The position numbers and the translations under genes are program-made. Below, one piece after another: positions 1 through 42,475 of a DNA stretch of 64,000 nt. The notes under the pieces are model-generated. The model did not search any database, was not told where the DNA came from, and saw nothing but the letters and a program-made list of their open reading frames with translations. Origin of the DNA: Dioscorea cayenensis subsp. rotundata (Eukaryota > Streptophyta > Magnoliopsida > Dioscoreales > Dioscoreaceae); assembly GCF_009730915.1 (NCBI RefSeq), contig NC_052477.1:28220420-28284419 (forward strand), given 5' to 3'. Every line of letters begins with the position of its first letter. Position 1 is the stretch's first letter.

Positions 1-1
1 A

Positions 2-181
2 CAAGAACGAAATTGCCCGTGGCAAAAGCTGGGTACAGTCGATTGTCCAGTCTATGTCATGCGCTTTATAGAGCAAATACTCGCTGGCGAGAAACTAAAA
101 CTTCCCCAGACGGACATTCCACACTTGCGTCTATGTTTTGTGGGTCGAATATTGATGGATGGCATTGCCCGTGGTCGCTGA
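2..181 (+). CDS. C-terminal fragment of a ULP1-like (C48) cysteine protease carried by a MULE
   Basis: The frame starting at base 2 is open to a TGA at 179-181 and gives about 59 residues. It contains VDCPVYVMRFIEQILAGE, which matches the region around the catalytic cysteine of ULP1/SENP proteases (D-C-G/P-x-Y/F-x-M). The N-terminal His and Asp of the triad would lie upstream, outside the window. In the host, this family removes SUMO; inside MULEs its role is not established. The sequence ends ILMDGIARGR before the stop. It is partial because of the window edge, so whether the full gene is intact is unknown. Confidence 0.6.
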   Translation, partial: QERNCPWQKLGTVDCPVYVMRFIEQILAGEKLKLPQTDIPHLRLCFVGRILMDGIARGR

Positions 182-360
182 ACTTCCGGAGAATCAAAGA
201 GCTGTTAGGATATGTTTAGCAATATATTCTCATTAACTTGACTTTTCTTCTATTTTGAGTTCTGGACAAGTACTTATTTGCATATCACTACGATGCTTTG
301 AACAAGAGTTGTTTGTCATGCACGTATATGCTTGTCTACTTAAAAAGAATCGTACTTAGT

Positions 361-490
361 TAAAATTAGTTCATACTGCTTAAATGTCGCTCATACTGCT
401 TAAATTTAGTTCATACTGCTTAAATTTCGGTCATACTGCTTAAAATTAGTTCATACTAGTTAAAATTTGTTGTTTTCACTTAAAACTAAA
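361..490. repeat. Short tandem repeats of about 20 bp, 3' of both MULE genes
   Basis: About six copies of a unit around TTAGTTCATACTGCTTAAAT lie in the spacer between the converging protease and transposase reading frames. Units vary by a few bases. They share the CTTAA core with the minisatellite inside the transposase intron at 1100-1440. Confidence 0.8.
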
Positions 491-538
491 ACATACCGCT
501 TTTCTTGTGGCAAGCTACATGTAAATAACATCATGTAG

Positions 539-1717
539 TCAGTCAGCTATCGATGCATTACAGGATCTACAGTTATGACTAGCATCATGCCAACGGCTGC
601 ATCGTAATTCGCGAACGATTGATGCTTGCGACTCCATACGCTTCCGTCTTGGCCGACCAACTGACTTCTTGGTGATTGGAGGGCGCACAAGCAGTTCACG
701 GTTGATATCATCTGGTTTGTCATTATTTGGTACTAGAAATATGGCTTCTGCATATGCTTGTCGGTAAGAGTCCAATGTGAAGTAGTCATCGACATATCGA
801 TAAATATTTGTGTCTGTCTGCAGTATTGCCTCACATGCATGTTTGTATGGAATGCCATATACCTGCCACCTACGACATGAGCATGTCCGAGCGTTCAAAC
901 TGATGCAGTAGTTCTTCTGGTCAACCACTTCAAAATGGTCATTGTCGGAACGGCCGATTAGTAGGTTGTGTGACTTTTCAACAAGTTCCTCAATCTTTCG
1001 ATGTATGACAGGACATAGACGTCTCTCCCATCTGTGAGATTGTTCACGTCGATGACACAACATGCCCATCAGCTTAAACCTTTGTACAAAAGACAAGTCA
1101 TGAAATAATAAGCGGTAATATTAAAACTTAATCGGAAACACTATAATTTAATCGTAAACGATGTAACTTAAGCGGTAACAATCAAACTTAAGCGAAATAT
1201 TTGAAACTTAATTAGAAAAATTATAATTTAATCATAAACGATGTAAGTTAAGCCAGAAATCTTAATATTAAGCGATAAAAATTAAACTTACACGAAAAAA
1301 TTTAAACTTAATCGGAAAAATTATAATTTAATCGTAAACTATGGATCTTAAGCGGAAACAATTAATATTAAGCGAAATCATTGAAACTCAATTGGGAACA
1401 AATAAATTTAAACGGTAACAAATAAATTTAAGCGAAATGGTGCGTACCTTATCGAGTCTACCATGTTTGTGACAGGGAGGTGGCGTGCCTCTTTTATCCA
1501 TGCACTAAATGACTCCACCACATTTGAGTACATCTCCCCCCATCTCTCACCTTTGAACATGTAGTTCGCCCAGTGCGCCAGATCGGATTTCTGCATCAAC
1601 CATTGATGTGCATCCGCCGATGTGTTTAACAGATCGGCAACAACGTCATCGAATTCTTTTTCAGCACATGAAAACGCAATTCTCGATAATATAGACCAGC
1701 ACCGTTCTTTCAATGAC
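539..1717 (-). pseudogene. Mutator-like transposase, C-terminal half, two exons
   Basis: Exons 1448-1717 and 539-1079 join in phase (donor AAG|GTACGC, acceptor ACAAAG|GTTTAAGC) into one frame that reads through to a TGA. The upstream part has the conserved transposase region with WANYMFKGERWGEMYSNVVE and NMVDSIR. The downstream part has a SWIM zinc finger: CSCRRWQVYGIPYKHACEAI (C-x-C-x(n)-C/H-x-H/C type). A basic tail GRPRRKRM follows. The DDE catalytic core would be upstream but is missing, because homology stops at about 1717 where a different repeat begins. The remnant is open but truncated, so it is treated as a broken gene. The family acts by cut-and-paste transposition. Confidence 0.85.
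1100..1440. repeat. Minisatellite inside the MULE transposase intron
   Basis: The whole intron (1080-1447) is built from degenerate AT-rich units of roughly 15-30 bp, such as AAACTTAATCGGAAAAAT, TATAATTTAATCGTAAAC and TAACTTAAGCGGTAACAA. A CTTAA-type core recurs about every 15 bp, more than 20 times in all. Splice sites remain at both edges. Confidence 0.85.
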
Positions 1718-2748
1718 TTGCCATGTCGCACTCCATCCTCACCTACTCCACCACCTAACACCCCCCACATGGGCTTTTCTGACTTTGACTCCAATCCTAA
1801 CCGTCCATCCAAGCAAGTCATTCTTGCACATTTTGATGCTTGTGGCTCCTAGTCTTCTGGGCTAAAAATTTGCCAGTTGTAGGCTTGTTTCTCTTTCAAG
1901 AAAATGATGATGAGTATGCCTTAAAATTCAATGTATCTCAAGGCCCTATCAATACATGTGGAAAATTCAATGTCTCTAAATAGTAAAATAGCATCTTATT
2001 CTCATAGTGAACAGTTCCCTTAGGTTCTAAATTTGTTTTAGAAAGCTCATTGTAGCCCTGTTTCGGGACTCTAGAGTTATTTTTGCATGGATTGAAGGTG
2101 TGCCTTAGTTGTTGTATAACTAGCTAAATAAAATTTGGTAGCAACGTTGGGTTGTCTGTGGACATTGTTTTAGAAAGATCATTGTAGCCCTGTTTCGGGA
2201 CTCTAGAGTTATTTTTGTATAGATTGAAGGCGTGCCTTAGTTGTTGTATAACTAGCTAAATAAAATTTGGTAGCAACGTTGGGTTGTTTGTGGACATTCT
2301 TAAGTGAATTGGTTGGTTTAATTTGAGACCTACATCCCCTTAAGTTTTGATGGCTTTCTACCTGAAGGATATTCTGCATTTCTGTTTTATTCTTTATTTT
2401 TACGTTGTGAATGTTGGGAGGGGTTGCTTATTCATGAGGGAGCATAATTGGCTAATTCATTTTGAAGTGATTGGTTTAGGTGTAGCAAAATAAGGTTTTG
2501 GTTTATATGTTAGGTGGGTGCCCTAGCTAGGGAGACCATCATGAGAACTTAATGATTGATGATATTTTTCCTTTTATGACCTTTCCAACTGCCCCTGATC
2601 TCAATTTTAAAATACTAGCAGTCTTTGAAATTGTATAGCTTATCTGTTATTTTAATTCTTTAGCTAATGCAATTATTGTTACCGAGAATGAAGGTTAAAA
2701 TCTAAGTTTGGAATATTTCTATGACTAGTTGGTGGCCATTGTGATTAC
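1718..2748. repeat. Duplicated segment, copy A
   Basis: This is homologous along its length to 12166-13030 (copy B) in the same orientation. It starts at CATGTCGCACTCCATCCTCA, directly abutting the MULE, and ends at 2748 where LTR-like sequence starts. The first 100 bp also match 41721-41815. No coding frame with recognisable homology is present. In copy B the same DNA continues into an RPT3 pseudo-exon, so much of this may be old RPT3 upstream or intron sequence. Confidence 0.85.
2035..2298. repeat. 132-bp tandem duplication inside copy A
   Basis: Units 2035-2166 and 2167-2298 differ at only a few positions; both begin GTTTTAGAAAG. Copy B (near 12460-12590) has a single unit, so the duplication happened after the A/B split. 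Confidence 0.9.
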
Positions 2749-3424
2749 TGTTGGGGATTTTCGGGTTTTTGGAACAGTGAAAACTACAGAAGTTGCTGTA
2801 GCAATTCATTGTTCACCATATTGTAGTGATTTTACTATTCACACACGACCTGTATACGGGCGCACACCTGCCCGTGAATCTCATTGCGATCTTGTGCGGG
2901 CGGTATGCGGGTGCAAGCTTGCCCGCATGTCTCTGTCACAAGTACTGTTCACAGATAGTGTTCATTGGTAATGTAGCAAATCACTATTTATGTGCGGGGC
3001 TCATGCGGCCACAAAACACCCATACACTTCACTGGCGACCTTACGCGGCCTGTGTACAGTCTGCGTAAACTGCAAACAACCTTGAACAAGATCCTTGAGG
3101 CTTCAAAAGTCTTTCCAAATATTTTACAAGTCTTTAAAGCTTCAAAACAAGCTCAAAACACTATTGAACCCCTCAGTTTTTGTTAGAATGATATAAACAA
3201 GCATACAACGATTCAAGACAACGATTTTTAGCATAGAAAACCTACAAATCGAGGGAAAACCACGGGACTCCTTAGAGCCTCTTAAACTTGCATCCACTAG
3301 GTCAATAATGAGTTACAATGGATCTTCTCTAGCTAACTAGAGGTTTACATGCATGAAGGGAATAACATTCATAGAGAGGTATTTGTATGACATTATCACC
3401 ATCATCATCAACAAGGATGGATAA
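2749..3424. mobile_element. LTR-like insertion (start TGTTGGGGATTTTCGG)
   Basis: Homology between copies A and B stops at exactly 2748/2749, and the new sequence starts with TGTTGGGG, the TG expected at an LTR edge. The sequence alternates phrases such as TGTTCACCATATTGTAGTG and GTGTTCATTGGTAATGTAGC, typical of plant LTR retrotransposon ends. No coding domain is seen. The right edge is unclear because another LTR-like sequence starts at 3425. The class assignment is inference. Confidence 0.45.
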
Positions 3425-4455
3425 TGTCACGCCCCGACCCGTAGGCCCGCTATGTGACAACCGCCACGACAATCCCGAGGAGGGACATACACCACTCAAC
3501 CCTTGAGTCATCTCAAGGCTCACAAACTCCTGCTAAACAACACCACAACAACAAAGATACCAAAAGCAAGACTTTCACTCAAAAAGTCAACCGTGTAGTA
3601 AAAGACATACAAGTCATAGACACAAAGTTAAGAACACTAGTGGATCCACTGCAATAACACAATGCAACCTGTTTAACAGTAAATAAAACAACCTGACTTG
3701 GGATGCAAATTGCCAAGCACTTCGCCTCGCTATGACGACCCAAACCACTAAAAAATGGAAGAGAGTAGGGGGTGAGTAACCATAATTACTCAATGAATGG
3801 GTTAACACAAATCTAAAAGAATATCAAAACAAATTGATGAATTCCAATAAACACGTTTTACAATAACATAAATGAACTGAAACATTTCACATTTGCAACA
3901 CAATGAAAGTACAAGATATGAAACCTTGGTATTTAAAAACTGAAATATAGGTTCTCACGAGTATAGACAAAACATCAACATGTATAAAACAATTGCCTGG
4001 ATATAAGTTCCCAAATGAGTAGAAATTCCAACTTAAACAAATAAAATCCTCGATAATCACAAATCCTCAATTCTGCATAATACATGTTCGAAAAACATTA
4101 AGATATAAAACATGTTATGCAAGAGATGACACTTCGAATATACCAATTGCAAGAAAATATGATTAACCGCAAATACTAAAATTTCATTTCGATCAAATAA
4201 GTAATGGCCTAAAAACACTCTCTCCAACATTAGTCGCCATCGCGATTAAGTTGAGAGCCGTCAAGGTCTTCGCACCCTTGACGTTGTCCTACCGGTCCCC
4301 GTGTGGTGACCCCGGGATCCCGATGTATCATCCAATCAAGACTCTACTCTCCCACCTGATCTGGACAAATCAACACTCAGGTCCACCATGTCATCTCTAA
4401 AAACTGGCCCGTGGGGACTCACTACTGCAGTAGTCGGGCCTTAGCCCGCTGTTAC
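3425..4455. mobile_element. Probable solo LTR, Ty3/Gypsy-like
   Basis: It begins TGTCACGCCCCGACCCGTAG, a common start of Gypsy-type LTRs in plants. It contains GGGGGTGAGTAACCATAATT and CGGTCCCCGTGTGGTGACCC. It ends near TGTTACCA at about 4455, just before an (AT)n run and the duplicated block. No internal retrotransposon coding sequence is found, so a solo LTR is the simplest reading. No target duplication could be recognised with confidence. Confidence 0.45.
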
Positions 4456-4499
4456 CATCCAAACCCTAGATGATGGATCCTCATATAAATATATATATA

Positions 4500-4776
4500 T
4501 ATATATATAATTATATTTTATAAATAATTATAACTCAAAATACTAAAGAAATGTAAAAACCGATAGTAGTACCAACATGAGTTTTACTATTAGAGCTAGT
4601 CCTACATGTACGAAACTCTTTTAACTCTTCTCACATCGACCATTAAATTGCACTGTCATTTGCAAATGAATGGTTGGTGTTCATTTGTTCTATTTAAATC
4701 AATCTTTTCCATCACTCATTTGATGTATCACCTTTTCAAATAATCAAAATAAAAGTGTGTTTGCGCAAAATTTTCT
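4500..4776. repeat. Duplicated block, left copy, left piece
   Basis: From the phrase ATAATTATAACTCAAAATAC to AAATTTTCT this matches 39530-39740 with scattered substitutions and small indels. In the second copy the sequence continues directly with AAAATATTTTAATG, which in this copy is found only at 9746 and beyond. The two halves of the block are therefore separated here by about 5 kb containing the NLR gene. Confidence 0.85.
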
Positions 4777-4781
4777 GCGGC

Positions 4782-5435
4782 CAGTTTGGTTACTTATATG
4801 TTAATACTAAATAGTTGTAATATAAGTTATTGTACATGTAAATGATTATTTAATTTGATGTAAAAGCTTCATATAAATGTAATTAGATTTGCATTTTAGT
4901 CAATTTTTACAATATTTTAATTTAGTGTAAAATTTATTGTAAGTTGAAATGTAATAAAGTAAGTGTTATCCACTCACCATTATATTCATTTTATATTTAT
5001 TTAAAAATATTTAATACAATAATTATTTTTAATTTTAATTATAAAAATATTTTAAAGTAATAAAATTAAATAATAAATATTTTTTATAAATTGAAAATAT
5101 GATAAAAATAATTAATAGAGTAAGTGTTTTTAAAATTAATTATAATTTTTTTCAAGTAATAAAATTAAAGAAATATTAATTTTTTTAAATTTAATGAATA
5201 ATTTATTAAATTATTTAATCAGTTTCTATTAAGTTAATTTTTATGTTAATAATAATAATAATAATATTGGGTAATCTCAACATCTTATTTACATAGTAAC
5301 TATATTTTTAAATTTACATCAAACTAAATAAAAAAAATGCGTTTTTTCAAATTACAACAAACCAAACAACAATTATGTAAATTAAAATATAACAGTTTTA
5401 CCTACACTGTATTTTTATTTATAGACAACCAAACA
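4782..5435. mobile_element. MITE-like element, left of the NLR gene
   Basis: The ends are an imperfect inverted repeat: CAGTTTGGTTACTTAT at the left and the complement of CTGTTTGGTTGTCTAT at the right. The AT-rich interior shares phrases with the element at 8845-9745, including ACAACAAACCAAACA near both right ends, ATGTAAATTAAA/ATGTAAATTGAA, and a (TAATAA)n run. No coding capacity. A clear target duplication was not found. Confidence 0.55.
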
Positions 5436-5969
5436 GTTTTTATATGAAAGTTCATTGTCACGTAGATTTGTTGAATTTGCTCATTGCTTTGGAAATAAAT
5501 GTTCTTAAAAAATTTGAATTAAATAACTAAAACAAATGCCCATCCCTAATATTTTTAATGAGACTTGGTCATTATTTATTGTTGGAAGGGAAGCATGTCT
5601 CATTATTTATTGTTGGAAAGAGAAGTTGAAGTAAAAAAAAAAAAAACAGATATGGTCCTTTAATTTCAAGGGTGTAATTAAAGAAGACTTTGAAAATAAT
5701 ACAATTGAGAACATGAACTCCGATTTAATAAAATGCTAGTGGGCTATAAAGAATTCGGAATAAAATGAGAATGCCTGTCCGACACCGACGGCATGGCGAA
5801 CGGATTCTCTAGTCTGGCACTAATAAATTATTATTATTAGTAATTGACTTGTATACTTAATGGCCTCACTTGGTGACAAGGTGGACTAAAAAAATAACAA
5901 ATACAAGTAAATTGTAGTAGCTTGATATATAGCTATTAGCTAACATGGGAGGTCACCGCTCACCAGCAT

Positions 5970-5974
<5 letters not shown>
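5436..5974 (+). promoter_or_regulatory. NLR upstream region with TATA-like box and a short upstream reading frame
   Basis: This stretch matches nothing else in the window. A TATATAG lies at 5926-5932, about 70 bp before the NLR start. An ATG at 5945 opens a frame of nine codons (MGGHRSPAF) ending with TGA at 5972-5974, immediately before the (GA)n run. If the transcript starts near the TATA-like box, this would be a translated upstream reading frame. Whether it is transcribed is not shown by the sequence. Confidence 0.35.

Positions 5975-6003
<29 letters not shown>
5973..6003. repeat. (GA)n microsatellite at the NLR start codon
   Basis: About 15 GA units run directly into the ATG at 6004. 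The repeat is in frame with the gene and would encode alternating Arg-Glu, but no in-frame ATG lies upstream, so it belongs to the 5' leader. Confidence 0.85.
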
Positions 6004-6010
<7 letters not shown>

Positions 6011-8742
6011 CTATAGTTTCCTTGGCTGTGACGAAGCTGGCTGATCTCTTAGCACAAGAAGTTGGGTTTCTCAAAGGAGTAGATGATGAGCTGAGATCCC
6101 TTCATGATCTTCTCCAATGGATTGAAGCACTCCTTAAAGATACCGATATTCACAGCAACAAAGATGATGAACGTGCTAAGCTTTGGGTGAACCAGGTACG
6201 AGATCTTGCTCATGACTCCGAGGACATCATCGACGACTATGTCTTCAAAATGCATAAACACAAGTCCATCCGCGGTTACTTCTCTTCCTTAAGAACATTT
6301 GTTGTTCTTCCTTCAAAATTAGTAATCCTCCATGAACTTCACAATAATATTGGCAAGGTCAAGGGGAGAGCTCAGGAGATCTATAATAATCGTACGTTTG
6401 CCTATGGGAGCATTGGAGCAACTTCTTCAGATCCATTTGCCAATAAAGAAAGACAACCACCACCATTGATGAGCAGGAGACCAATTGCAAGTCCAGTTTT
6501 GGAGGAGGAGGTGGATGTTCTGGGCTTTGATGCGCATTTCCAGTCATTGGCAAGGATGCTGATTGGGGATGATGTGAATCAGCTGAGGCGTGCTGTGGTA
6601 TCGATCACTGGCATGGGAGGTGCAGGCAAAACCACTCTCGCCAAGAAGATCTTCTCTGACTCTGGCATCAGGAGGCACTTTACCTGTCATGCATGGATCT
6701 GGGTCTCACAAAAGTATCGACCTCGAGAAGTATTAGAGACCATTGCTAAAGATGTGATTAGTATGCCTAAGAAAGAATCGAAATACCTAAGCGATGAGGA
6801 GTTGAATCAGGAGGTTATTAAGTACTTGAAAGAAAAGAAATACTTGGTGATCTTAGATGATGTATGGAGCAAAAGAGCTTGGGATAGCATCAAAAAAGTG
6901 CTACCAGACATGATGAATGGAAGTCGAGTGTTGTTAACCACTCGCAACCATGATGTAGCATTGTATGCAGATAGGCAGAGCCCTCCCTACGATCTCAGGT
7001 TCTTGGGAGAAGAAGATAGCTGGAGGTTGTTTTGCAGAAAGGCAATTCCAACAAAGTGCAGCAATGATTGTCCGCCAGACTTGGAAGATATAGGAAGAAA
7101 GATGGTAGCGAAATGTTGCGGTTTGCCGCTTGCCATCATTGTATTGGGAGGGCTGGTGTTGACTAAACGGCAATCAAAGGAGGAATGGAAGAAGATGCTA
7201 AAAAGCGCCAATTGGCAACTCAGGCAGGGTGAAGAGCAGATCTCAGAAATGCTAGCTCTCAGCTACCATCATCTCCCTTACTATATCAAACCATGCTTTC
7301 TCTACTTTAGCATCTTCCCCAAGGGCTCTCTGATCAGTGCCAAGAGGCTTATGCGAATATGGATTGCGGAGGGGTTTATCCAACCCAGAGGCCAGGAAAC
7401 AATATTGGAGGAAGTCGCAGAGGATTACCTGGAGGATTTGGTGCATTGGAGTATGATTCAAGTGGTGGAGAGACATGATCATGGCGGCATCAAGATTTGT
7501 CAAATCCATGAGCTTCTCCATGACCTCTCAATCTCTCTTGCCCAAGGTATGAACTTCATGCATATTTCTAGTAATGACAATGAGAAGAATATTTTACATA
7601 AACCCCGTCGACTTGCTTTCCATGATGACAAGAGTACTAGTTTCATTGCTCAATTGAAGTCTACTGACTCCACTTCTCGTTTGCGCACTATAACTTTGAT
7701 AAGCATATATAAGAGGACCTCTGAATTGGAGAAATTCTTCCATAATATTAAGTTGCTGAGAGTTATAAATATTCAGGGTACAAGAATCAAGTCATTGCCG
7801 AATGATATAGGAAAGTTAATCCATTTAAGGTACTTGGGTTTGCGTTGTACAGATATAAGAGAGCTGCCATCCTCCATCGGCAAACTCACTAATCTGCAAA
7901 CTCTTGACGTCAAAAATTCCATGTATATCAGTGAGCTACCAAGTCAAGTGTGGAAGATGCAGCGCAATCTAAGACATTTGGAAGGCACTGGTTTTTCCAT
8001 CAAGGGACAACCAAGCACTGAGAGCCTGCCCAATCTACAAACTCTGTCAAGTGCTAAAGGTGACACATGGTTGGAAAATGGTTTACAAAAGATGACAAGT
8101 CTAAGAAAACTAGGAGTTCATGATGTCACTGGCACTTGTAAAGTGGCATTGTTAGATTGTCTTAGCAAACTAGACAATCTCAATAAATTGGCATGGAAAG
8201 CCGGGCAAGATGGTATGGTACCTAGCTCAATACTCTCCACTAGTCAACACAAGAATAAACTCCAAGTTCTTTATTTGCATGGCCGATTGGAAGGGCTGCC
8301 AGATGTTACTTGCATGCCTGCGAGCCTCACCAAGTTGACCTTTGAATTAACAATGCTTCGAGAAGATCCCCTATTGAAGTTAGGGAAGCTAGATAACCTT
8401 CAGGTTCTTAGATTAAGACATCATGCTTTTGTTGGAAGGGAGATGATTTGTTCGGAGAAAGGATTCCCTCAATTGAAAGTGTTAGAACTGAATTCCTTAC
8501 ATGAATTGAAGCTGTGGAGTATAGAGGATGAAGCCATGCCAAAGCTTAGAGAACTGGAAATAGAGAAATGTCCTCTGAGGATGCTTCCCCAGGGCCTTCC
8601 AAAGGTTACCAGTCTACAAGAGTTAAAAGTGATAGGCATGAATGATAACTTCTGCAAAAGGTTGAGACCAAATGATGGTGAGGATTGGGAAAAAGATCAA
8701 ACACATACCTTCAGTCGCCATCATACCTGCTCGTTCTGTTAA
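6004..8742 (+). CDS. CC-NB-ARC-LRR immune receptor (CNL type), intronless, apparently intact
   Basis: A single open frame of 912 codons with all hallmarks of an intracellular plant immune receptor. Residues 1-150 form an Rx-N coiled coil with an EDVID-like motif DSEDIIDDY (71-79). The NB-ARC domain has the P-loop GMGGAGKTT (203-211), RNBS-A with HFTCHAWIWVSQ, kinase-2 YLVILDDVW (280-288), RNBS-B GSRVLLTTR, GLPL (373-376) and RNBS-D CFLYFSIFP. The MHD position reads IHE (501-503), a variant. Leucine-rich repeats fill about 550-890. W at the end of kinase-2 supports the CC rather than the TIR class. The ATG at 6004 is chosen because the frame upstream is only (GA)n with no ATG. The gene sits in a 5-kb segment absent from the other copy of its surrounding block. 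It would sense pathogen effectors and trigger cell death; its ligand cannot be read from sequence. Confidence 0.95.
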
Positions 8743-8844
8743 GATGAGCCCGTTGTCTGGAAAAGTAACAACGAGGAAGAGATTTTCAAAAAACATCGGA
8801 ATAAAAACTATATTTGGTTGAGAGAATTAAAAAAAAAAAAACTT

Positions 8845-9745
8845 AGGGGTTATTTGATTATTTGTAACTAGCTGTAAATAAACTGTAATATAAACTACTT
8901 TTTATTCTAGAAAATCTTGATTGGTTTCTTATAAAATGAGTTTTATATGTCAATAGTTATGTAATTTTTCAGTACTTTTTGCGATGATTAGTAACTTTAC
9001 ATCAAAACAACAAAATATTTGGGTTAAAATCATCATCATTCTTCACTCTCTTCGCTCTCCACGTTATGCAACAAAAGCAAAAGAAAACTTATATAGTAAT
9101 CAATTGTTAATATAATTAAACTTATAGTTATTTATATTTTATTTTAAAAATACCAAATTTATTTTAATTTTGATTAAAAAAAATATTTTTTAGACATAAA
9201 ATTAAAGAATATTGCATATTTTTAATTTAATAAGTTATCATTAAATTAATTAAATCATGTCTCCTACATTAGTATTGACACTGTGAATGTCGAATATTGT
9301 ATTTTGGATGAAAGTTAACCCTTAATTTGATGCTTAGTTATTTAAGTTTCTGATTATTATTTGGCATTCTTGTTATTTTTATTCAAATTCAATACTAAAA
9401 ATATATTATTTTTGTTTAAAATTATATATTTTTAAATGTAATCAATATTATATTAAATCAATTAATTAATTTAAAAATTAAATTAAATGAATTATTTTAT
9501 TTTTTTGAAATTTATTAAATAATTAATAATAATAATAATAATATGTAATCGGATAATCTCATCCATCCACTTACACAGTGACCATATCTTTTAATTTATA
9601 GTAAACAAAACAGACAAAAAGTAAATACAGCGTTTCCAGTTACAACAAACCAAACAGTAATGATGTAAATTGAATTTCAGTATTTTCACTTACACTATAA
9701 TTTTATTTACATGTAATTTCACTTATATGTAATGAAACAACCCCT
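8845..9745. mobile_element. hAT-like MITE, right of the NLR gene
   Basis: The ends are AGGGGTTATTTGATTA and the complement of AGGGGTTGTTTCATTA, flanked by imperfect 8-bp direct repeats AAAAACTT (8837-8844) and AAAATATT (9746-9753; 6 of 8 match). Short TIRs starting AGGGG and 8-bp duplications fit hAT-type elements. The interior is AT-rich with no coding capacity and resembles the element at 4782-5435. Confidence 0.65.
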
Positions 9746-9821
9746 AAAATATTTTTCTATATTATTATTAAACATTTTAATGACCCATCCTTTTCTTCTC
9801 ATCTTCTAAACTAATGAGTTG

Positions 9822-10263
9822 CTTTTTTTTTTTTTTGAGGTAGATGTGGATAAACCACAGATTTATTGAAAAGTAAAGGAATGACAGTGCAGAGATAAGA
9901 GCCTCTCTCACGAGTGAGGGGTACAAAAATACAATGAAAAAAATACATGAAAAGAGCATAAAATAAAATAGGGGTAAAGGAAGTCTAGAAAGGTGGAAGA
10001 CACCATCTGACATCTCAGGCCTGCCCAAACAAAAGTAGGAGCATCTACTCCTAAACTATATCATGAGCAGGATCGCCAGCAGGATTGCCAGCAGGATCGC
10101 CAGCAGGATCAGAGTCTCTAGCGCTAAGGAAACTGAGGGAGCGGTTAATTTTCTGAGATACTTCATTGAGTGATTGTTGATGTTTATCAGCAGCTGTTGA
10201 AAACCAAGAGAGAAGTATATTAGCAATTTTAAAGATAATATTAATGTGTGACACAACATTTTA
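9822..10263 (-). mobile_element. 5'-truncated LINE tail, 442 bp, with target duplication
   Basis: A run of about 14 T at the left edge is the poly(A) tail of an element inserted on the minus strand. It is flanked by 9-bp direct repeats AATGAGTTG (9813-9821 and 10264-10272). The second block copy has the uninterrupted site ACTATGGAGTTGTC. The first bases after the tail, GGTTTATCCACAT on the minus strand, resemble the 3' end of the larger LINE at 21.3 kb. A 12-bp unit (AGGATCGCCAGC) is repeated about four times at 10071-10112. Confidence 0.8.
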
Positions 10264-10474
10264 AATGAGTTGTCTTTTCAGTGTCCCAAAACAAAGAACT
10301 TTGAACTTTGATCTATATTTCTAAATTATTCCCTAAGTTAAATTAAATGAATTTCTCTCATTCAATGCTTCTTCTGTTAATTTTTATTATTTTTAACAAC
10401 TCCTTAATGAATGAATCATCCAGTATTTCATTTATTGTGTGGTATCGAAGTATTGAAAGTGGTAGTATGACTAA

Positions 10475-11347
10475 GGCCTTGTTTGGATTAGCTTAATAAA
10501 AAAGTGCTTTTTTGAAGTTTGGTAGAAGGACTTTTAAAAAAAGTGCTTATGAGAGTAAGTTAAGTGCTTTTCTATATTTTATGTTTGGATATGTTAATGT
10601 AGAAGTACTTTTATATATGTAAAGTTGTTTGGATATGCATTCTTGAAAGGACTTTTTTCAATGTCAAATTACTAAAATGGTCCTTCATTAGTTTATTATA
10701 ATAACACTAATTCTAATACTAATATACTAACATACTAATATTAATACAAATATAATAATAATATTAATATGAATACAAATACTAATTGATATACTAATTA
10801 TAATATATGAATACTAATATGAATACTAATATACTAATACAAATACAAACATACGAACATACTAATATTAATACTAATATACTAATAATAATATTAATAT
10901 ACTAATATATTAATAATACTAATACGAATACAAATACTAATATACTAATAATAATACTATTACTAATATAAATATACTAATATACTAGTACTAATACTAA
11001 TATACTAACATACTAATACTAATATATTAATGTACTAATTCTAACACTAATACTTATGTAATTATAATCATAATTATTATTATTGAAAAAACAAAAAATA
11101 TAAAAGCATAGTCATTTCTTTATTTGATAAGGGTAACTTAGTAATTTAATAACTCCAAAATAGCTTCTAAGAAGTGCTTTTTCTAAAAGCACCACAAGAC
11201 TAGCTTCTCAAAAAAGCTATTTTCAGTTTTTTTATCAGCTTCTGCTTTTGCAGAAAAGCTAATACAAACATGATTTTTTGAGCCCAGAAGTGCTTAACTT
11301 ATAAAAAAGCACTTCTGGGCTTTTTAAAAGCCAATCCAAACACCCCC
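10475..11347. mobile_element. Tourist-like (PIF/Harbinger-type) non-autonomous element, 873 bp
   Basis: The ends are GGCCTTGTTTGGATTAGCTT and the complement of GGGGGTGTTTGGATTGGCTT, flanked by the 3-bp duplication TAA (10472-10474 and 11348-11350). The second block copy has the empty site GTATGACTAAGAAGGT, so the boundaries are exact. The centre (10690-11060) is a long run of ACTAAT/ACTAATAT units. No transposase is encoded. Confidence 0.85.
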
Positions 11348-12165
11348 TAAGAAGGTGAAGTTTTTCCTTTACCGTTGTAAGTGAAAATTACTTTTATTAG
11401 GGTATACAAAATCTATTAAGAAAAAATTCCAACAAAACACGTCTATTTATTTATATTTTATTATAGTTGAAAACCAATTTAAAGTTTTATAAACAACACT
11501 TATTTACTATTGACTATTATATTTTTTACGGAGTATTTTGATATTTATTAATTGTTTTTAATAAATATTAATTAAAACCATAAAAATAAATAATACTAAT
11601 TTATAAGGGTATCAAGTCAAATATAATTTTTTATAGCTAAAGGCTTCATAGCGAAAGGTAAGGCATGGTGTGAAATGTCTCCGGTTTAAGTCTCGCTAAA
11701 ATAACTTCCATTAAAAAACCGTCTCCGAGTGGGTTGGTATTATAATTTGTTTATATTTATTAAAAAATAAAAATAAAAAGTATATTTTTATTAAATAATC
11801 CTTTGAAAATATTAAAATTACATATAAGACCATTTTTAAGATAATAATAATCAAAGTTAACTATTTGATAGTCTGGTCTCTGGAAAAGAATCAATTTAAG
11901 ATATATATTAAAGTTAAGGAGGCATGAGTAATAATCACTCAACATCAACTCATCTATCTTCCAAAAATTAATCATGAGTCAAACCATTTGAGATGTTGAA
12001 CATTGATGCCATGAGTCCATGACTCATTAGCTCAACTTTTGATGCTGTTCATTTATCTTCATGTAATTAATGTTTATAAATTAGACCTAAAAGTAAAAAG
12101 TCCCAAAACCGTAGCGCAGCGATCACGTGAGAGTCACAATCGCGAGGCAACCCGATTGCTGCCAC

Positions 12166-13030
12166 GTCGCACTCCATCCTCACGTACTCCAACACCAAAC
12201 ACCCCCCCGCATTGCCTATTCTGACTTTGACTTCAATCCTGATCGTCCATCCAAGCAAGTCATCCTTGCACATTTTGATGCTTGTGGCCCCTAATCTTCT
12301 GGGCTAAAAATTCGCCAGTTGTAGGCTTGTTTTTCTTTCAAGAAAATGATGACGGGTATGGCTTAAAATTCAATACATGTGGAAAATTCAATGTCTTTGA
12401 ATGGTAAAATAACATCTTATTCTCACAATAAACAGTTCCTTCAGGGTCTAAATTTGTTTTAGAAAGCTCATTATAGCCCTGTTTCAGGACTCTAGAGTTA
12501 TTATTGTATGGATTGAAGGCGTGCCTTAGCCGTGTTGTATAACTAACTAAATAAAATTTGGTAGCAACGTTGGTTGTCTGTGGACGTTGTTAAGTGAAAT
12601 TGGTTGGTTTAATTTGAGACCTACATCCCTTTAAGCTTTGATGACTTTCTACCTGATGGACATTCTGTGTTTCTGTTTTATTCTTTATTTTCTCCATTGT
12701 GAATGTTGGGAGGGGTTGCTTAATTATTCTTTAGGGAGCATAATTGGCTAATTTATTTTGAAGTGATTGGTTTAGGTGTAGCAAAATAAGGTTTTGGTTT
12801 ATAAGTTAGGTGGGTGCATGAGAACTTAACGATTGATGATATTTTTTCTTTTATGGTCTTTCCAACTTCCCCTGATCTCAATTTTAAAATACTATCAGTC
12901 TTTGAAATTGTATAGCCTATCTGTTATTTTAATTCTTTAGCAAGTGCAATTATTGTTACTGAGAATGAAGATTAAAATCTATGTTTGAAATATTTCTATG
13001 ACTAGTTGATGGCCATTGTGGTCACTAGTT
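12166..13030. repeat. Duplicated segment, copy B
   Basis: Homologous to copy A (1718-2748), without A's 132-bp tandem repeat. Its first 100 bp also match 41721-41815, so it joins the end of the duplicated block to the unique A/B sequence. It then continues through about 340 bp of unassigned sequence into the RPT3 pseudo-exon at 13374. The shared breakpoint in A and B means the fusion existed before the A/B duplication. Confidence 0.85.
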
Positions 13031-13373
13031 GTCGGACTTAAAGGTTTTAAATAAGTTTCTTGATGCCCACTAGAATATTTGTAAATAACTGACTGAAAAA
13101 ACAAGGTGATCAGATTTACTTGTTCATGTAACTACTAGGAGAGCTGTGATCTCTTATGTCTATTTTTAATGAATAATATTGGTTGGATATTAAATATTTA
13201 TGGGTTTTTGCAAGTTTTTTAATTTGTTTTTTAGTTATGCCGTCAAAATTCTGGAGATTTGACAGGCAATTATGTGTTTGCTAGTTCTCTACAGTATAAA
13301 TTCCTTCTATTTTCCAGGTACATAACCATATTTTATAGTGGACATTTGACTTGCATTTATTTATTGTAATTAG

Positions 13374-13558
13374 GATATAGGAGGGTGTGATATTCAAAAA
13401 CAGGAAAATCTTGAAGCTGTAGCCAAGGGGTGTCCTACTTCTTTATGGTCCACCTGGCACTAGTAAAACTATGCTTGCCAAGGTTGTAGCCAATCATACA
13501 ACTGCTGCATTTATACGCGTGGTCAGTTCAGAATTTGTTCAGAAGTATTTGGGTGAGG
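13374..13558 (+). pseudogene. RPT3: RPT3 (26S proteasome ATPase) pseudo-exon with intron flanks
   Basis: An acceptor (GTAATTAG|GATATAGG) leads into DIGGCDIQKQE, a conserved RPT3 stretch. After EAV about 17 residues are missing out of frame; the match resumes at [20 protein letters not shown] and then [12 protein letters not shown] up to KYLGEG. The Walker A motif is GTSKT instead of GTGKT, and a Leu codon is inserted. Splice-site flanks are kept, so this is a DNA-level duplicate, not a processed copy. No other RPT3 exon is seen near it. It covers the exon immediately upstream of the one that emerges from the gap at 34 kb. Confidence 0.9.
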
Positions 13559-14251
13559 CATGTCTAATAAATATTCCACATGCATTTGATTCCTCTGTGT
13601 ACCTCTTTCTTTCTAATGGTTTAGATTGTTGGAATATGATTGAAGATGGTGCTATGATGAACAGAAGTGCAAGGAGATTGACATCCCACCCTCAGAAGAT
13701 ATGCCGGTTATGGGAGAGTATGTTGAAGATCTATTCATGATGAATGCTTTTTTTGAAGGTGTCTTGTTTTGTTTTTAATGAGCACAGTACCATGCATTAA
13801 TATGCACGTACGGTGTGAAGTTTGCAATGTTATGCTTTTACTCTGCTTTGGTTGTATTGTTTTTTTGAGTTTGAATTTGAAGCTAATGTAGTTTTTTTGC
13901 AGCTACTTCTCCATAACAAGTGTGTGTGTGTGCTGTGATGTGTGCGAGTGTGTTTGCACCTGAAGAGTTCTACATAGATCACTGATGTGGCAATTTTTAA
14001 GTAATTCTACTTGAGCAGAAATACTATGGTGTAATTGTCCTTATAATCTTACTGAGGATTCAACCTGGATTATTTATTTTTATTTGTGTGTGTGTGTGTG
14101 GTGTGTGAGCATTGGTAGCATTCAGCAATCAGTTGGCAAGTCCTGGACTTCATCATTTCATGTAGAGCATACTTTCTTATTTTTCTTCATCCTAAGCAAC
14201 TTCTCTTGTTTCTGTATGCTGGTGTCACAGGATTGCTTTCTTGGCTGTTCA
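13559..14251. other. Spacer between the RPT3 pseudo-exon and the Copia element
   Basis: Holds (TG)n tracts at 13921-13932 and 14087-14107. A short frame with [20 protein letters not shown] occurs at about 13660-13720; I do not recognise it. It may be a relic of another exon, but no splice context supports that. Nothing else is supported. Confidence 0.4.
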
Positions 14252-15050
14252 TGATAATCACTATATAGATAGTTCAGATCTATCTGATCGAGTTTCTTAT
14301 AGAAAGCAACTTGAAAAACTCAAACACTTGATCAGGAAAATTCATGCAAGCTCAAGAAAACCAGAATAAAAGTAAAACAGAAGCCATGTCAAAAGAATAA
14401 TGATACCAGATCATATATAACTCAAATGCTTCTCAAATTTCATACATATGAAGTTAAGATCAAGTACATAAACTCTCTTATATAAACTTCAGATCAAAAC
14501 ACACTTAAAGAAGCAGGAAAATTCAAACATCAATCAACTCTCAAAGAAAAACATAACCATTCTTACATAAGAACCCATAATATATCACTGTGAAAGTTCA
14601 GTGACTGAATTGAACTGAACCTGCTCAATCACACCACACGCGTCAGTTGTTCCTCAGCTGCACCGCTTGAGTCGTTTCCTTGCCTCGAACTTGATACAAA
14701 GCCCTTGATCATCAAATCTCAGCCGTTCAGAACAAACACAATCTATATCTCTCTAAATGCCTCGAACTTAAACCTCTTACCATGATGGATGAGATCTTGG
14801 CCACACGATCTCTGGCTAATCTTGTTGCTGAGATTGTTTTTCCCTGCCTCAAACTATGTACTCACTTGATCTTCAAATCCTGACCATCCATCACATTCCC
14901 ACCGATTCTTCAACTGACTTAACAGACTTTCAAACATGGGAAAAGACTAACATACCCTCGGCTTCTTAACAAATGACACCAGGACACACTGAGCTGCAGC
15001 TTCACTGCTTCCTCTCTGCAATTGTACTTGATCTTCAATCAATTTCAACA
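14252..15050 (-). repeat. Copia 3' LTR
   Basis: Its 799 bp begin on the minus strand with TGTTGAAATTGATTGAAG, right after the purine-rich tract, and end with GTGATTATCA. It aligns along its length with 19401-20215. Confidence 0.85.
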
Positions 15051-20215: not shown

Positions 20216-21215
20216 NNNNNNNNNNNNNNNNNNNNNNNNNNNNNNNNNNNNNNNNNNNNNNNNNNNNNNNNNNNNNNNNNNNNNNNNNNNNNNNNNNNNN
20301 NNNNNNNNNNNNNNNNNNNNNNNNNNNNNNNNNNNNNNNNNNNNNNNNNNNNNNNNNNNNNNNNNNNNNNNNNNNNNNNNNNNNNNNNNNNNNNNNNNNN
20401 NNNNNNNNNNNNNNNNNNNNNNNNNNNNNNNNNNNNNNNNNNNNNNNNNNNNNNNNNNNNNNNNNNNNNNNNNNNNNNNNNNNNNNNNNNNNNNNNNNNN
20501 NNNNNNNNNNNNNNNNNNNNNNNNNNNNNNNNNNNNNNNNNNNNNNNNNNNNNNNNNNNNNNNNNNNNNNNNNNNNNNNNNNNNNNNNNNNNNNNNNNNN
20601 NNNNNNNNNNNNNNNNNNNNNNNNNNNNNNNNNNNNNNNNNNNNNNNNNNNNNNNNNNNNNNNNNNNNNNNNNNNNNNNNNNNNNNNNNNNNNNNNNNNN
20701 NNNNNNNNNNNNNNNNNNNNNNNNNNNNNNNNNNNNNNNNNNNNNNNNNNNNNNNNNNNNNNNNNNNNNNNNNNNNNNNNNNNNNNNNNNNNNNNNNNNN
20801 NNNNNNNNNNNNNNNNNNNNNNNNNNNNNNNNNNNNNNNNNNNNNNNNNNNNNNNNNNNNNNNNNNNNNNNNNNNNNNNNNNNNNNNNNNNNNNNNNNNN
20901 NNNNNNNNNNNNNNNNNNNNNNNNNNNNNNNNNNNNNNNNNNNNNNNNNNNNNNNNNNNNNNNNNNNNNNNNNNNNNNNNNNNNNNNNNNNNNNNNNNNN
21001 NNNNNNNNNNNNNNNNNNNNNNNNNNNNNNNNNNNNNNNNNNNNNNNNNNNNNNNNNNNNNNNNNNNNNNNNNNNNNNNNNNNNNNNNNNNNNNNNNNNN
21101 NNNNNNNNNNNNNNNNNNNNNNNNNNNNNNNNNNNNNNNNNNNNNNNNNNNNNNNNNNNNNNNNNNNNNNNNNNNNNNNNNNNNNNNNNNNNNNNNNNNN
21201 NNNNNNNNNNNNNNN
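20216..21215. other. Assembly gap (exactly 1000 N)
   Basis: A run of 1000 N of conventional length; the true distance is unknown. It starts at the outer end of the Copia 5' LTR. Confidence 1.
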
Positions 21216-34000: not shown

Positions 34001-37593
<3,593 letters not shown>

Positions 37594-39514
37594 GAGACCT
37601 CAGTTTGTGAAAACTTTCAACTTTCAATTTACTTGGTACCATTCCACTACTAAATTTCATGTAATTGCACCTCAAAGTTTCATATCTGGTTTCCTCTCTT
37701 TTACCCAGTTCATTCACATTAGACAGTGACTGCAAATGACTTGGCTAAGAACTGAACAAGTATTTCAATATGATGTTCATGAGTTTAAATTTGTTATGAT
37801 TGCTGATTTATAAACAACCAATTCAATGTCATGCCATCTGTTAGTTGTTCATGGCTCTTGTGAGTTGATCACAATTTCAATTCTTGACATATAAAACGGA
37901 GGATTCGTTCATATATGCGAATCATTCATAGATGGTCCTTAGCTGTACATTCATTGAACACTATATTGAAGTGCAGTCTTGTCGTTCGAACTCGCTCTCA
38001 ATGCCATGAACTGTCCTGTTCCATTGAAACCCCAGTACACATGATTTCTTATCCATCTATTTTGCACTATGAAAACCATTTCAAATTCTTTGTGACCCTA
38101 CTTCTCAATGAAGGTACAAACATTTTATTTGTGGTTTTATTCTACTTTGCCCTACTATGAGAGTAATGGCTCTTGCTCCCCATGTGTGTCATGACTTACT
38201 TTTCAATGCTCTTCTTGATGATATTTGATGACTCATGCCTGTTTTAGATCTATAAGCTTTTGCTGAAACTTGAGGAAAAAAAAAAAATGTGTGGCTCAGT
38301 GGCTATTCTTGAAAGGTATGTAGGGATCACATCCTCTCATTGTGCCATTCATATCATGTTTCTTGTCTTTTCAATTTCTTCATTCAAGCAATCACTCCTG
38401 TTGTCCATCTCAAAGCATTTCTGATTGAAATGTTGCATGATTAAGCAATGCATTTGGATGTGATTGTAAGTTTGGTGGCATATTTACATCCTGACGTCCA
38501 TAGAAATCTATGGACGTCCAATTATCAGCCGTTGTATCACGATCCAAGAGCCGATATTGATGAACAATATTATTGTTTATTATACTGTTTTAAACAGTAA
38601 TTATTGTATATATTATTATTATATATATTGTTCATCAATGTTAGTCGTTGGATCTCGATCCAATGATTAATAATGAATATTTATAGATTTTTTATTTATC
38701 GACGTTTATAGAAAAATGGTCCTCATATATATATATATATATATAATGGAATAGGATCATCATATGCTGCCATTCCAATGGCAAAGTAGGTCATAACATG
38801 CAGTGCATAGTGCATGGTGATGGTATGATGGTAAATATAGAAAGTAATTGGGTGGTTGTTGGTCTTTGTTTGTCTGGTCTTGGGACCCCAACTTTGGTGT
38901 TTGTCACACCTTCCTTGGCCCTTTGCTTTTGCTCCCTGAAATGTTGAAACCCAACTATGAAAATGATGGATTTTCAATCCATCTTTTATTTTGAGTTCTC
39001 AAAAGATCATTTTATCAGTTAGGTGTTTTCCTTTCTTTTATTTATTTATTTTTTTATTTTTGCATACCTCTTGCAAAAATTAGAATCCTTGGTGTGAAGC
39101 ATTTTTTAAATATTCCATTCATGGAGTATTTGTGCAAAGGAAATTCTTGTATTGATAATCTCACATATATACTTTTGCATGGGTATATATAATTTATTTG
39201 GGCTTTATATTTGTGTTTTTTTATAAAATTTAGAAATTTCTTCTTTTGTGTGCCTATATATGTGTGTATTATATATATTTGATAAAAATACTAAATTAGT
39301 CACAAACCCTTGATTTTTGGCTTAAGAAAAGAATGAAATATTAATTCTTCTATCGTAGAGGTATATATATATATATGCTTATGTATTTGTTCGGCATAAA
39401 TTGTTATATCAAAATATCAAATAACTTTAGGGGAGATTTTTTTCCTTTTGTTTAGGAACTTCAAAATTCTAATTCACATTTCATTATCAGATATATAAAT
39501 ATAATAACTAATAA
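37594..39514. other. Intergenic region downstream of RPT3
   Basis: No gene is supported. The first 200 bp probably hold the RPT3 3' UTR. A foldback element (38490-38720) and (TA)n runs at 38727-38745 and 39362-39377 are present. Confidence 0.5.
38490..38720. mobile_element. Foldback/MITE-like inverted repeat element
   Basis: The left half (GACGTCCATAG...CGATCCAAGAGC...TTGATGAACAATAT) is inverted in the right half (ATATTGTTCATCAATG...GGATCTCGATCC...CGACGTTTATAG). Near the left end is a further perfect hairpin, GACGTCCATAGA/TCTATGGACGTC (38493-38518). No coding capacity. The target duplication is unclear. Confidence 0.6.
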
Positions 39515-40214
39515 CATATATATATATATTATTTTTTTATGAATAATTATAACTCAAAATACTAAAGAAATGTAAAAAAAAACTGATAATAGTACCAACA
39601 TGAATTTCAATATTAAAGCTAGTCCTACATGTACCAAACTCTTTTAACTCTTCTTACATCAATCTTTTCCATCACTCATTTGATGTATCACTTTTCAAAT
39701 AATCAAAATTAAAGTGTGTATTTGTGCTAAATTTTCTAAAATATTTTAATGATCCATCCCTTTCCTCTCATCATCCATTCTAAACTATGGAGTTGTCTTT
39801 TCAGTGACCCCAAAAACACAGAACTTTGATCTTTGATCTATATTTCTAAATTATTCTCCAAATTAAAATAAATGAATTTCCCTCATTGAATGCTTCTTCT
39901 GTAAATTTTTATTATTTATAACAACTCATTAATGAATGAATCATTCAGCATTTCATTTATTATGTGATGTCTAAGTATTGAAAGTGGTAGTATGACTAAG
40001 AAGGTCAAGTTTTTCCTTAGTATTTGTAAGTGAAAATTACTTTTATTACGGTATATAAAATCTATTAAGAAAAAATTCCCACAAAACACTTCTATTTATT
40101 TATATATTTTCATAGTTGAAAATCAATTTAAAATTTTATAAATAAGATATATTTACTATTATTGACTATTATATTTTTTAAGGAGTATTTTGACTTTTTA
40201 TAAATTTTTTTAAG

Positions 40215-40506
40215 TACTCCCTCCATTCCTTTTTTTTATCTATCACAAATCCATGTTATTTTTTATCATCATTTTCTTACATCGCTTTTATTATTATTTT
40301 TTTTTCCAAAAATTACTTCTAACATTAATATTCAACTCTTTTCTTGGAATTAAATATGAGAGAGAAATATGAAGATATAAAATATGGGTAATTTTGGAAA
40401 AATAACTAATTTTTTATAAAATTTTGTGAAATAACTAAGTTTCTTGGTATGTGAAATTCGGTTAACCACGATAGATAAAAAAGAACGAAAGGTCAAAAGA
40501 GTAGTA
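40215..40506. mobile_element. Stowaway-like MITE
   Basis: Starts TACTCCCTCCATTCC and ends with the complement of TACTCTTTTGACC, with the TA target preference of Stowaway elements. It is absent from the left block copy (near 11560-11580). It shares TTTTTTATCTATCACAAATCC with the right part of the element at 62073-62347 in inverted orientation. Confidence 0.75.
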
Positions 40507-40759
40507 ATTAAAAAATATAAAATAAATAATACTAATTTATAAAAATATATATTCAAATATAATTTTTATAGCCAAAAGGCTTCCTAGTGGCATTGGCTTC
40601 ACGACGAAAGACATGAAGTAGAATATTTAAATTCAAATTTTGCTAAATCTAATGGTGATAAATGAGTTCCTAGTAGGAATTCATGTTTATGGTTCGGACC
40701 CTACGTCACCAAATGAGAATATGGGTTAAACAATAAATTACCTCTCTGCATCTAAAGAG

Positions 40760-41151
40760 TCATTTTGTTCGTCGTAATGGCATATTATCACATAACAAAA
40801 TTATCATGGTAATATTAGTAGAAATATTATATGGTTGAGAATATTGCGGTAATTTGATATAACCATGTTTGGTTAAATACTCTTATTACCAGGAATAGTT
40901 CATTACTGTGTTTGGTTGTCATGATAATCAATTTGCTAAAATATAAAAAGTTATAAAATTACCACGGTAATCCAAGATAGACATCAAATTTGGTGGTAAT
41001 AGAATTACTAACTTTTTTTTGTAATATTTATAAGTTGGTAATGTGATATTACTATCAAGATTACCACCGGTGTAATGCCAAACGTGGTAATATTTTCAGA
41101 TTACCATGTAATATGTGGTAATCTTTCTATATTACTGTGGACCAAACGACC
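40760..41151. mobile_element. MITE-like element
   Basis: Ends GTCATTTTGTTCGTCGTAAT and the complement of GTCGTTTGGTCCACAGTAAT form an imperfect TIR, and the interior has repeated TGGTAAT/ATTACCA motifs. The left block copy lacks it. No clear target duplication. Confidence 0.55.
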
Positions 41152-41176
41152 CTTAACTGATTTTGCTGGTCATGGT

Positions 41177-41209
<33 letters not shown>

Positions 41210-41681
41210 TACATCAATATAAAAGTATGAATCAATATTTATATAACTTCTCAGTTAAAAAACAACTTTTAATATAAAATCATCTTCACGAGTTGGATTT
41301 CATAGTTGGTTTATATTTATTAAAAAAATAAAAAAATTCTATATTTACTAAAAAAAAACCCTTTGACAATATTAAAATTACATTATGACCTAAAATAATA
41401 ATAATAATAATAATAATAAGCAAGCATAACTATTTGAGAGTCTGAAAAAGAATCAATTAAAGATTTTTTATTTTTTTTAAAGTTAAGGCATGAGTAATAA
41501 TCACTCAACATCAACTCATCAATCTTCCAAAAATTAATAATGAGTCAAACCAATTGAGATGTCGAACATTGATGCCATGACTCATTAGCTCAACTTTTGA
41601 TGCTGTCCATTCATCTTCATGTAATTAATGTTTATATATTGGACCTAAAAGTAAAAAGTCCCAAAAACGTAGCGCAGCGAT

Positions 41682-42475
41682 CACGTGTGAGTCACAATCG
41701 CGAGGCAACCCGATGGCTGCCACGTCGCACTCCATCCTCACCTACTCCACCACCTAACGCCCCACGCATCGCCTTCTTTGACCTTGACTTCAATCCTGAC
41801 CGTCCATCCAAGCAGTCATCCCTCGTTCCGCCACGTGTCAAAGATTAAATGTCCATTTAATTCCGCCGGATCACCAGAACACCATAGTCCAATTAATTAA
41901 ATATAAAATATTGGTATAATACTCGGTCCCTCTATTGTTTTTTATTCCTCCTACTCATAAATTCTTCCAATTAATTCTTTTACTTTTAAAAATATACTAA
42001 AAATAGAGAGATTAAATGTATCTATTTTTAAAAATATAGAGATTAAAGGGCATTTATGAATAGAAAGAAAAAAAAATATATGAGAGGAAAAATAGTAAAG
42101 TGATAAATTTGGGTATTATATTTAAAATATTAAAATACTTTCTTGAGAAACGCATTTCACCCAAACAATTGCGATTCCCAAAAAGGAGTTATTTTTAAAT
42201 TAGAGAAAATGAATTGAAAATTTTCATCAGATAAGGAATTATATTCAATCATGACCATCCATTCAGCAACTGTGACCCGTGTTCTTCCACGTGGCCGCTT
42301 GACCAGCTTAGCTTAATTATCATTAATCCGTCGGATCACCAGACCAACGACCCGAAAGCCAGTAGTAAAATGGTTTCTTAGAGAAACGCGTTTCACAGAA
42401 CTGAGATATTTTTCCACTAGGAGTTCTATTTTTAAATTTAAGTAAATAAATAGAAATTTTCATTAGATGAATAAT
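41682..42475. promoter_or_regulatory. Promoter-like stretch with three G-boxes, no gene attached
   Basis: CACGTG motifs occur at 41682-41687, 41832-41837 and 42288-42293, in GC-richer surroundings with GCTGCCACGTCGCACTCC. The part 41797-42250 is loosely repeated at 42251-42475: CCGTCCATC/CCATCCATT, CCGGATCACCAGA/TCGGATCACCAGA, GAGAAACGC-TTTCAC. G-boxes bind bZIP and bHLH factors, but no reading frame with homology follows in 41.8-43.6 kb. It may be the relic promoter of a lost gene. Confidence 0.4.

Follow-up and report, generated by a model that had tools for sequence, protein, structure and literature searches.

An NLR Gene Between Two Tourist-like MITEs and a Paralogous Block Lacking All Three in a Tandem Array of Dioscorea cayenensis subsp. 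rotundata

Introduction

The genes for nucleotide-binding leucine-rich repeat (NLR) immune receptors form clusters which evolve by birth and death, through tandem duplication, truncation and loss of copies; their presence/absence variation is common, with breakpoints usually blurred by later change. We describe here a locus of the yam Dioscorea cayenensis subsp. rotundata in a stretch of 64,000 nucleotides, called the window (C7:28,220,420-28,284,419, in an assembly of 584 Mb and 2,249 contigs), where an NLR gene stands between two miniature inverted-repeat transposable elements (MITE-L and MITE-R, which together with the gene we call the cassette) and where a paralogous block lacks the three. 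We consider it fairly probable that MITE, NLR and MITE were lost from this second block, by whichever mechanism. The array to which both blocks belong resembles birth-and-death NLR clusters and differs from them in that one loss or gain coincides with the ends of MITEs.

Pack-TYPE elements are single elements with captured sequence. They are like the cassette in holding gene sequence between transposon termini (PMC8903248; this paper and the four others cited below are represented by excerpts). The cassette differs in that both of its MITEs are complete and the gene between them is full-length and has its promoter; with four termini and such a gene, it does not fit a Pack-TYPE element. Closer to its MITEs are mPing and the PIF/Harbinger elements, which also make 3-bp TWA duplications (W being A or T) and whose excision usually leaves one copy of the three bases; mPing moves alone, whereas here two MITEs have a gene between them (PMC4561436). 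In maize, nearby Ac/fAc elements form macrotransposons, in which the pair moves the intervening DNA, and the excision of a 28-kb unit is on record; these elements are active, with 8-bp duplications, a footprint and observed events, whereas the yam pair is Tourist-like and old, with 3-bp duplications, and its movement is one that we infer (PMC9910405). The excerpt on Brassica napus likewise links a MITE pair to a structural change, but there the two MITEs are in opposite orientation and the outcome is a 29.8-kb inversion, whereas the cassette MITEs share one orientation and are associated with an absence (PMC12595863). Finally, in Acinetobacter two MITEs of the same orientation bound a resistance-gene cargo which they are inferred to move; these composites are bacterial, with identical MITEs and matching 5-bp target repeats, none of which holds for the yam cassette (PMC3934969). 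Among the literature matches listed, from a search which left most of the subscription literature outside, no precedent was noticed in which Tourist-like MITEs move as a unit together with an NLR enclosed by them.

The Tandem Array and the Two Paralogous Blocks

The upstream sequence and the window, merged into one coordinate string, contain a tandem array of duplicated segments on C7, which reaches beyond the left edge of the window by 48 kb or more. In genome searches restricted to this one plant genome, the left flank of the cassette had five copies, all on C7 and all inside the array: R1, R2, Q1, Q2 and E. The complete succession of flank, MITE-L, NLR, MITE-R and flank is found in R2, the window copy (its unit occupies window 1-14252), and in R1, 32.8 kb upstream of it. 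Q1 and Q2 hold the flank, MITE-L and the NLR promoter up to the equivalent of window position 5885, followed by an insert and then by two pieces, which correspond to 5887-5929 and 5375-5558, the NLR body being absent. In copy E, at 39.5 kb, flank is joined straight to flank, without MITEs and NLR. A filled and an unfilled paralogue and three further copies are gathered in this way within about 80 kb. Another duplicated segment, P, leads into Q1 (P1) and into E (P3), with a partial copy (P2) some 4 kb ahead of Q2. Outside C7, the genome search with the block flanks gave only short matches over one query part of about 110 bp.

R2 and E are diverged paralogues, whose BLAST pieces are 82-92% identical in a comparison of the window with itself (Table 1), and six collinear pieces flank the break on both sides. 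At the break of E, AAATTTTCT directly abuts AAAATATTTT, and in R2 a distance of 4.97 kb separates these phrases, as the initial annotation had said and as both sequences read. It had also described the two blocks as collinear: the match on both sides of the break bears this out and the empty-site reading stands, but elsewhere the collinearity is interrupted by other inserts and gaps in both copies. About 63 bp near 4635-4697 of R2 are absent from E, E contains inserts of its own in the right flank, and an insert of about 440 bp (9822-10263), which we infer to be a retroposon, is present in R1 and R2 and absent from E. A Tourist-type MITE at 10475-11347, distinguished by a ATACTAAT minisatellite core, occurs in R2 but neither in R1 nor in E. 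On the side of E, window 40752-41156 is a high-copy repeat, found at 37 other places at 87-89% identity among the best 40 of 1,947 candidates.

Transposon Ends at the Break

MITE-L and MITE-R have the same orientation and belong to the same superfamily, PIF/Harbinger. Their family is abundant, with 560 and 611 first-look candidates for the two MITEs, of which the best 40 were scored for each. From a sample of 27 fetched copies, 48 termini were read by script: the flanking 3-mer was TTA or TAA in 39 of them, and 17 of the 21 copies with both ends readable had identical 3-mers on both sides (the four others being L045, L050, L051 and L063). Because the family has 3-bp TWA duplications, a signature of Tourist-like PIF/Harbinger elements in the excerpt on mPing (PMC4561436), it is a family of Tourist-like PIF/Harbinger MITEs. 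The relatedness of the two MITEs, claimed from the start, is confirmed by this shared high-copy family and by a common terminal profile. The 8-bp duplication which had been noticed at the right MITE fares otherwise, since 3-bp duplications are what the family makes. A similar 8-bp pair, AATTTTCT/ATTTTTCT, does lie near the cassette, its right member a few bases off the MITE end, and a hAT-type reading with 8-bp duplications is rejected on the TWA duplications of the fetched copies. The MITEs of the cassette lack this regularity: MITE-L is flanked by TGC and TAT and MITE-R by TTA and TAA, so that no matching duplication surrounds either of them, and old copies can lose the match between their 3-mers.

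A profile of family ends, built from the same termini, was run along the block, in 15,802 combinations of position and strand. All four MITE ends matched it, the outer one of MITE-L weakly. First and second rank went to the inner and outer ends of MITE-R, third and sixth to the inner and outer ends of MITE-L, and ranks 4 and 5 fell inside the MITEs. For this outer end of MITE-L, the best register in R2 is 4778, where R2 has a 1-bp deletion relative to Q1 and Q2. The left edge of the stretch missing from E is the outer end of MITE-L, and its right edge is either the outer end of MITE-R or 23 bp beyond it. By these ranks, the left side of the break coincides with a transposon end, and its right side lies either at such an end or 23 bp away. 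Before MITE-L, R1, R2, Q1 and Q2 read TTTTC-TGC and, after MITE-R, R1 and R2 read TAA-AATATT; the junction of E reads TTTTC-TAA-AATATT. Two other early remarks hold on this reading: the microhomology at the break is limited to CT or T, and no target duplication surrounds the whole cassette, its outer 3-mers being TGC on the left and TAA on the right. Two related elements bound a cargo and are absent, together with this cargo, from the paralogue E.

The NLR Gene and Its Relatives

The gene of R2 matches Rx_N, NB-ARC, WH_DRP and the LRR region (frame 5998-8742), which makes it a coiled-coil NLR by its domains, and with these matches and an open frame of 912 aa the presence of an NLR gene is confirmed. 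Its best solved relatives are NRC3 and NRC2, and it has the P-loop GMGGAGKTT, the kinase-2 motif VILDDVW and GLPLA. In all four translated proteins (R2, R1, L014 and L018), IHE replaces the canonical MHD motif. The genome search found two close NLR copies on C7, both inside the array, those of R1 and R2, which are separated by a synonymous divergence (Ks) of 0.004 and a nonsynonymous divergence (Ka) of 0.004. R1 shows a compensating pair of 1-bp indels and a 6-bp gap, and R2 a 1-bp insertion near the C-terminus relative to R1; part of the indel differences of R1 may be assembly error. Between R1 and R2, the coding region is far more alike than parts of the adjoining MITEs, where the differences cluster around indels, a pattern which suggests gene conversion or assembly error.

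Beyond the array, the nearest NLR relatives sit on C8, at a Ks of 0.29-0.34 to the C7 gene, and the promoter alignment to one of them, L014, reaches almost to the inner end of MITE-L. Five C8 stretches of 9.9 kb were fetched: the block flanks are absent from them, apart from (TA)n matches, and queries with the MITE family gave AT-rich matches only, the best (93 bits) lying 3' of the NLR in L014. The idea that the same MITE-NLR-MITE unit recurs elsewhere in the genome found no support beside the close NLR relatives, since no clear unit at an unrelated place was seen in the reading of the array and the five C8 stretches, the more distant relatives (C8, C15, C3) lying outside this reading. As a separate observation, a Tourist-type MITE with ATA at each end interrupts one NLR relative on C8 (L017:3063-3972); this MITE differs from those of the cassette and is a relative (71%) of the MITE at window 10475-11347.

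Loss or Gain of the Cassette

The initial annotation had considered loss and gain of the cassette equally likely. MITE-R is 20-22% distant from the family consensus and MITE-L 15-18%. Between E and R2, 156 of 1,280 aligned sites differ (six of the seven pieces, the 51-site junction piece being left out), which corresponds to a divergence of about 10-12% or, when halved, to some 6% on each lineage (the BLAST pieces give about 5%); this piecewise count replaced a right-flank divergence of 15.5% produced by a forced alignment. Because the decay of the MITEs exceeds half of the E-R2 divergence, they are probably older than the split of the two copies, and the ancestor of E would then probably have carried both. 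Fast mutation within the MITEs was considered as a source of this apparent age and discarded: the 55 mismatches in 880 sites between the MITE-R of R1 and R2 occur in patches around indels and say little about the mutation rate. The mismatched outer 3-mers, as expected of two old separate insertions, also argue against a fresh composite insertion: in a simple model, the probability that at least two of the three bases changed is about 0.001-0.003 if a short stem (0.018-0.03) is assumed, and 0.05-0.08 if the MITEs are as old as they look (0.15-0.2). Moreover, the NLR body is missing from Q1 and Q2 through a break other than that of E, so loss does occur in the array. The MITE decay beyond the split, the TGC/TAA mismatch, whose TGC is common to four copies, and the missing NLR bodies of Q1 and Q2 tip the balance toward loss, though without proving it, gain keeping the smaller share.

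In the order of events that we favour, two Tourist-like MITEs would have come to flank one NLR before the copies of the block separated, segmental duplication would then have built the array, and the copy at 39.5 kb would later have lost the whole cassette. The cuts would most likely have fallen at the outer MITE ends, with excision of the pair in one large piece (a macrotransposon), and the rejoining of the DNA would have left a single TAA, with or without a loss of 23 bp on the right. Such a departure of the pair as a unit, most likely through the outer MITE ends, is our first choice, held tentatively and at somewhat less than an even chance. Tourist-like elements generally excise precisely, and in the excerpted experiments with mPing flanked by unequal duplications most repaired sites kept one of the two copies (PMC4561436). 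The genome search for the Harbinger-type transposase domain DDE_Tnp_4 gave 154 matches from the best 150 of 2,044 candidates, many of them without internal stops; since this model also covers host genes, the matches make a transposase source in the genome no more than plausible.

Several points weigh against this explanation. In the same experiments, repaired sites were recovered less often with unequal duplications, the repair of TTA/TAA was less precise, about 14% of the TCA/TGA cases retained both copies, and TGC/TAA is outside the combinations assayed in the excerpt (PMC4561436). The outer ends of the cassette are decayed, with profile scores of 7.0 and 23.4, when 46 of the 48 family ends reach at least 24.6. 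A single cut 23 bp past MITE-R scores 124.5, slightly more than the 121.9 obtained by cutting at the two MITE ends with a separate gap; both scores hang on the penalties chosen, for which reason the two placements are not regarded as distinguishable. With transversions alone, the gap in age is narrower (0.107 for MITE-R and 0.054-0.07 for MITE-L, versus 0.038 for half of the E-R2 distance), subfamily structure could inflate the ages of the MITEs, and a TGC which arose only after the split would void the argument from the duplication. Finally, E keeps the older state at 9822-10263 and 10475-11347, where the R lineage gained sequence, and this is the main reason why gain of the cassette stays alive.

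The strongest competitor, which we nonetheless judge rather unlikely, is an ordinary microhomology deletion or replication slippage in E, without transposase, the MITE ends marking the place, for example as hairpins. The CT or T at the break is what such an event would use, the best single-gap alignment removes the 23 bp beyond MITE-R in one event, and the missing NLR bodies of Q1 and Q2 provide a precedent through another break. The position of the edges speaks against it: one at the outer end of MITE-L and the other at most 23 bp from the outer end of MITE-R, within a block of 7.8 kb, is in our judgement, which is not a computed one, unlikely to be chance.

Gain, in which E is the original uninterrupted site and MITE-NLR-MITE, as a composite transposon, entered its TAA in the copy ancestral to the others, appears to us unlikely. 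E does have one TAA at the would-be point of insertion and a TAA follows the cassette, E is in the pre-insertion state at the two other inserts, and the nearest relatives outside the array, on C8, stand without clear MITEs beside them in the five stretches that were read. P3, the segment adjoining E, is moreover the outlier by identity (P1-P2 93.5% over 2.4 kb, P3-P1 91.6% over 3.8 kb, these being the longest pieces, and P3-P2 78-79% over short pieces), the pieces compared covering different stretches. The left-flank distances are 6.6-7.5% from E to the others and 3.4-7.8% from R to Q, and they do not root the copies. Against a gain stand the TGC on the left of all four cassette-side copies, MITEs which look older than the split, and the fact that no donor MITE-NLR-MITE was seen, although a cut-and-paste donor could have vanished. 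A transposition from C8, read from a nested tree, is likewise unsupported: the C7 pair branches as sister to the C8 copies, five in number, and is not nested among them (support of 52 for the C8 grouping).

Assembly effects, that is, an array put together from contigs with some copies being haplotypes or misplaced, are suggested by the 1-kb N runs at 20216-21215 and 33001-34000, by a further run of 1,000 N in the stretch upstream of the window and by the clustering of the R1-R2 differences of MITE-R around indels, but they are very improbable, given that the junction of E is inside the ungapped 34001-64000 and that the differences between E and R2 are excessive for ordinary alleles. R2 and E lie in separate ungapped stretches.

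Joining gain with the transposase-driven part of our first choice, we find it evenly balanced whether a pair of Tourist-like MITEs made an intact NLR with its promoter movable, so that it left or entered a site as one piece; the composite-transposon reading is possible, though unproven. The filled and unfilled paralogues and a defined MITE family make one loss or gain roughly datable and its mechanism testable. If the two MITEs did act together, whole receptors could be deleted or moved, leaving hardly any scar or none, by the abundant non-autonomous elements near NLRs, and MITE pairs would constitute a route to the all-or-none presence/absence of immune receptors; if they did not, the locus is still a clear case of NLR turnover in a tandem array.

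Coordinates and Other Features of the Window

Table 1. Features of the cassette, of the two paralogous blocks and of their surroundings (positions in the window; for collinear pieces, R2 ~ E).
Feature	Position	Strand	Identity	Basis or remark
Left flank of cassette, R2	4495..4776	+		BLAST; five array copies
Outer-left 3-mer TGC (family: TWA)	4776..4778	.		TGC common to R1, R2, Q1, Q2
MITE-L, Tourist-like, high-copy family; left end decayed	4779..5440	+		family profile
NLR upstream region	5441..6003	+		alignment to C8 relative L014
CC-NB-LRR gene, single open reading frame, 912 aa	6004..8742	+		ATG at 6004
Inner 3-mer TTA beside MITE-R	8843..8845	.		sequence read
MITE-R, both termini recognisable	8846..9744	+		family profile
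Outer-right 3-mer TAA	9745..9747	.		E has a single TAA at the junction
Right flank of block, R2, two later insertions within	9748..12265	+		BLAST
Insert of ~440 bp, poly-T edge, AATGAGTTG both sides	9822..10263	.		sequence read
Second Tourist-type MITE, minisatellite core	10475..11347	.		TAA at 10472-10474 and 11348-11350
Segment P3, leads into copy E	34001..39384	+		comparison with upstream array sequence
Left flank, cassette-less copy E	39516..39736	+		BLAST
Cassette-less junction AAATTTTC-TAA-AATATTTT	39729..39747	.		sequence read
Right flank, copy E, own inserts	39738..41821	+		BLAST
Collinear piece	4495-4637 ~ 39516-39660		88%	BLAST
Collinear piece	4694-4776 ~ 39654-39737		92%	BLAST
Collinear piece	10267-10475 ~ 39790-40000		91%	BLAST
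Collinear piece	11347-11561 ~ 39996-40213		88%	BLAST
Collinear piece	11566-11651 ~ 40502-40587		84%	BLAST
Collinear piece	11698-12265 ~ 41259-41821		82%, 562 bits	BLAST

Four other features of the window deserve a mention. An inverted repeat pair, 80% identical, occupies 40211-40485 and 62081-62351, and related repeats occur in Q1 and Q2. A fragment matching an AAA ATPase (13423-13737), in the tail of the duplicated unit, is probably a pseudogene. On the minus strand, the open reading frame at 539-1096 contains a SWIM zinc finger and is probably the remnant of a MULE transposase, and those at 30442-31121 match EF-hand (calmodulin-like) proteins.

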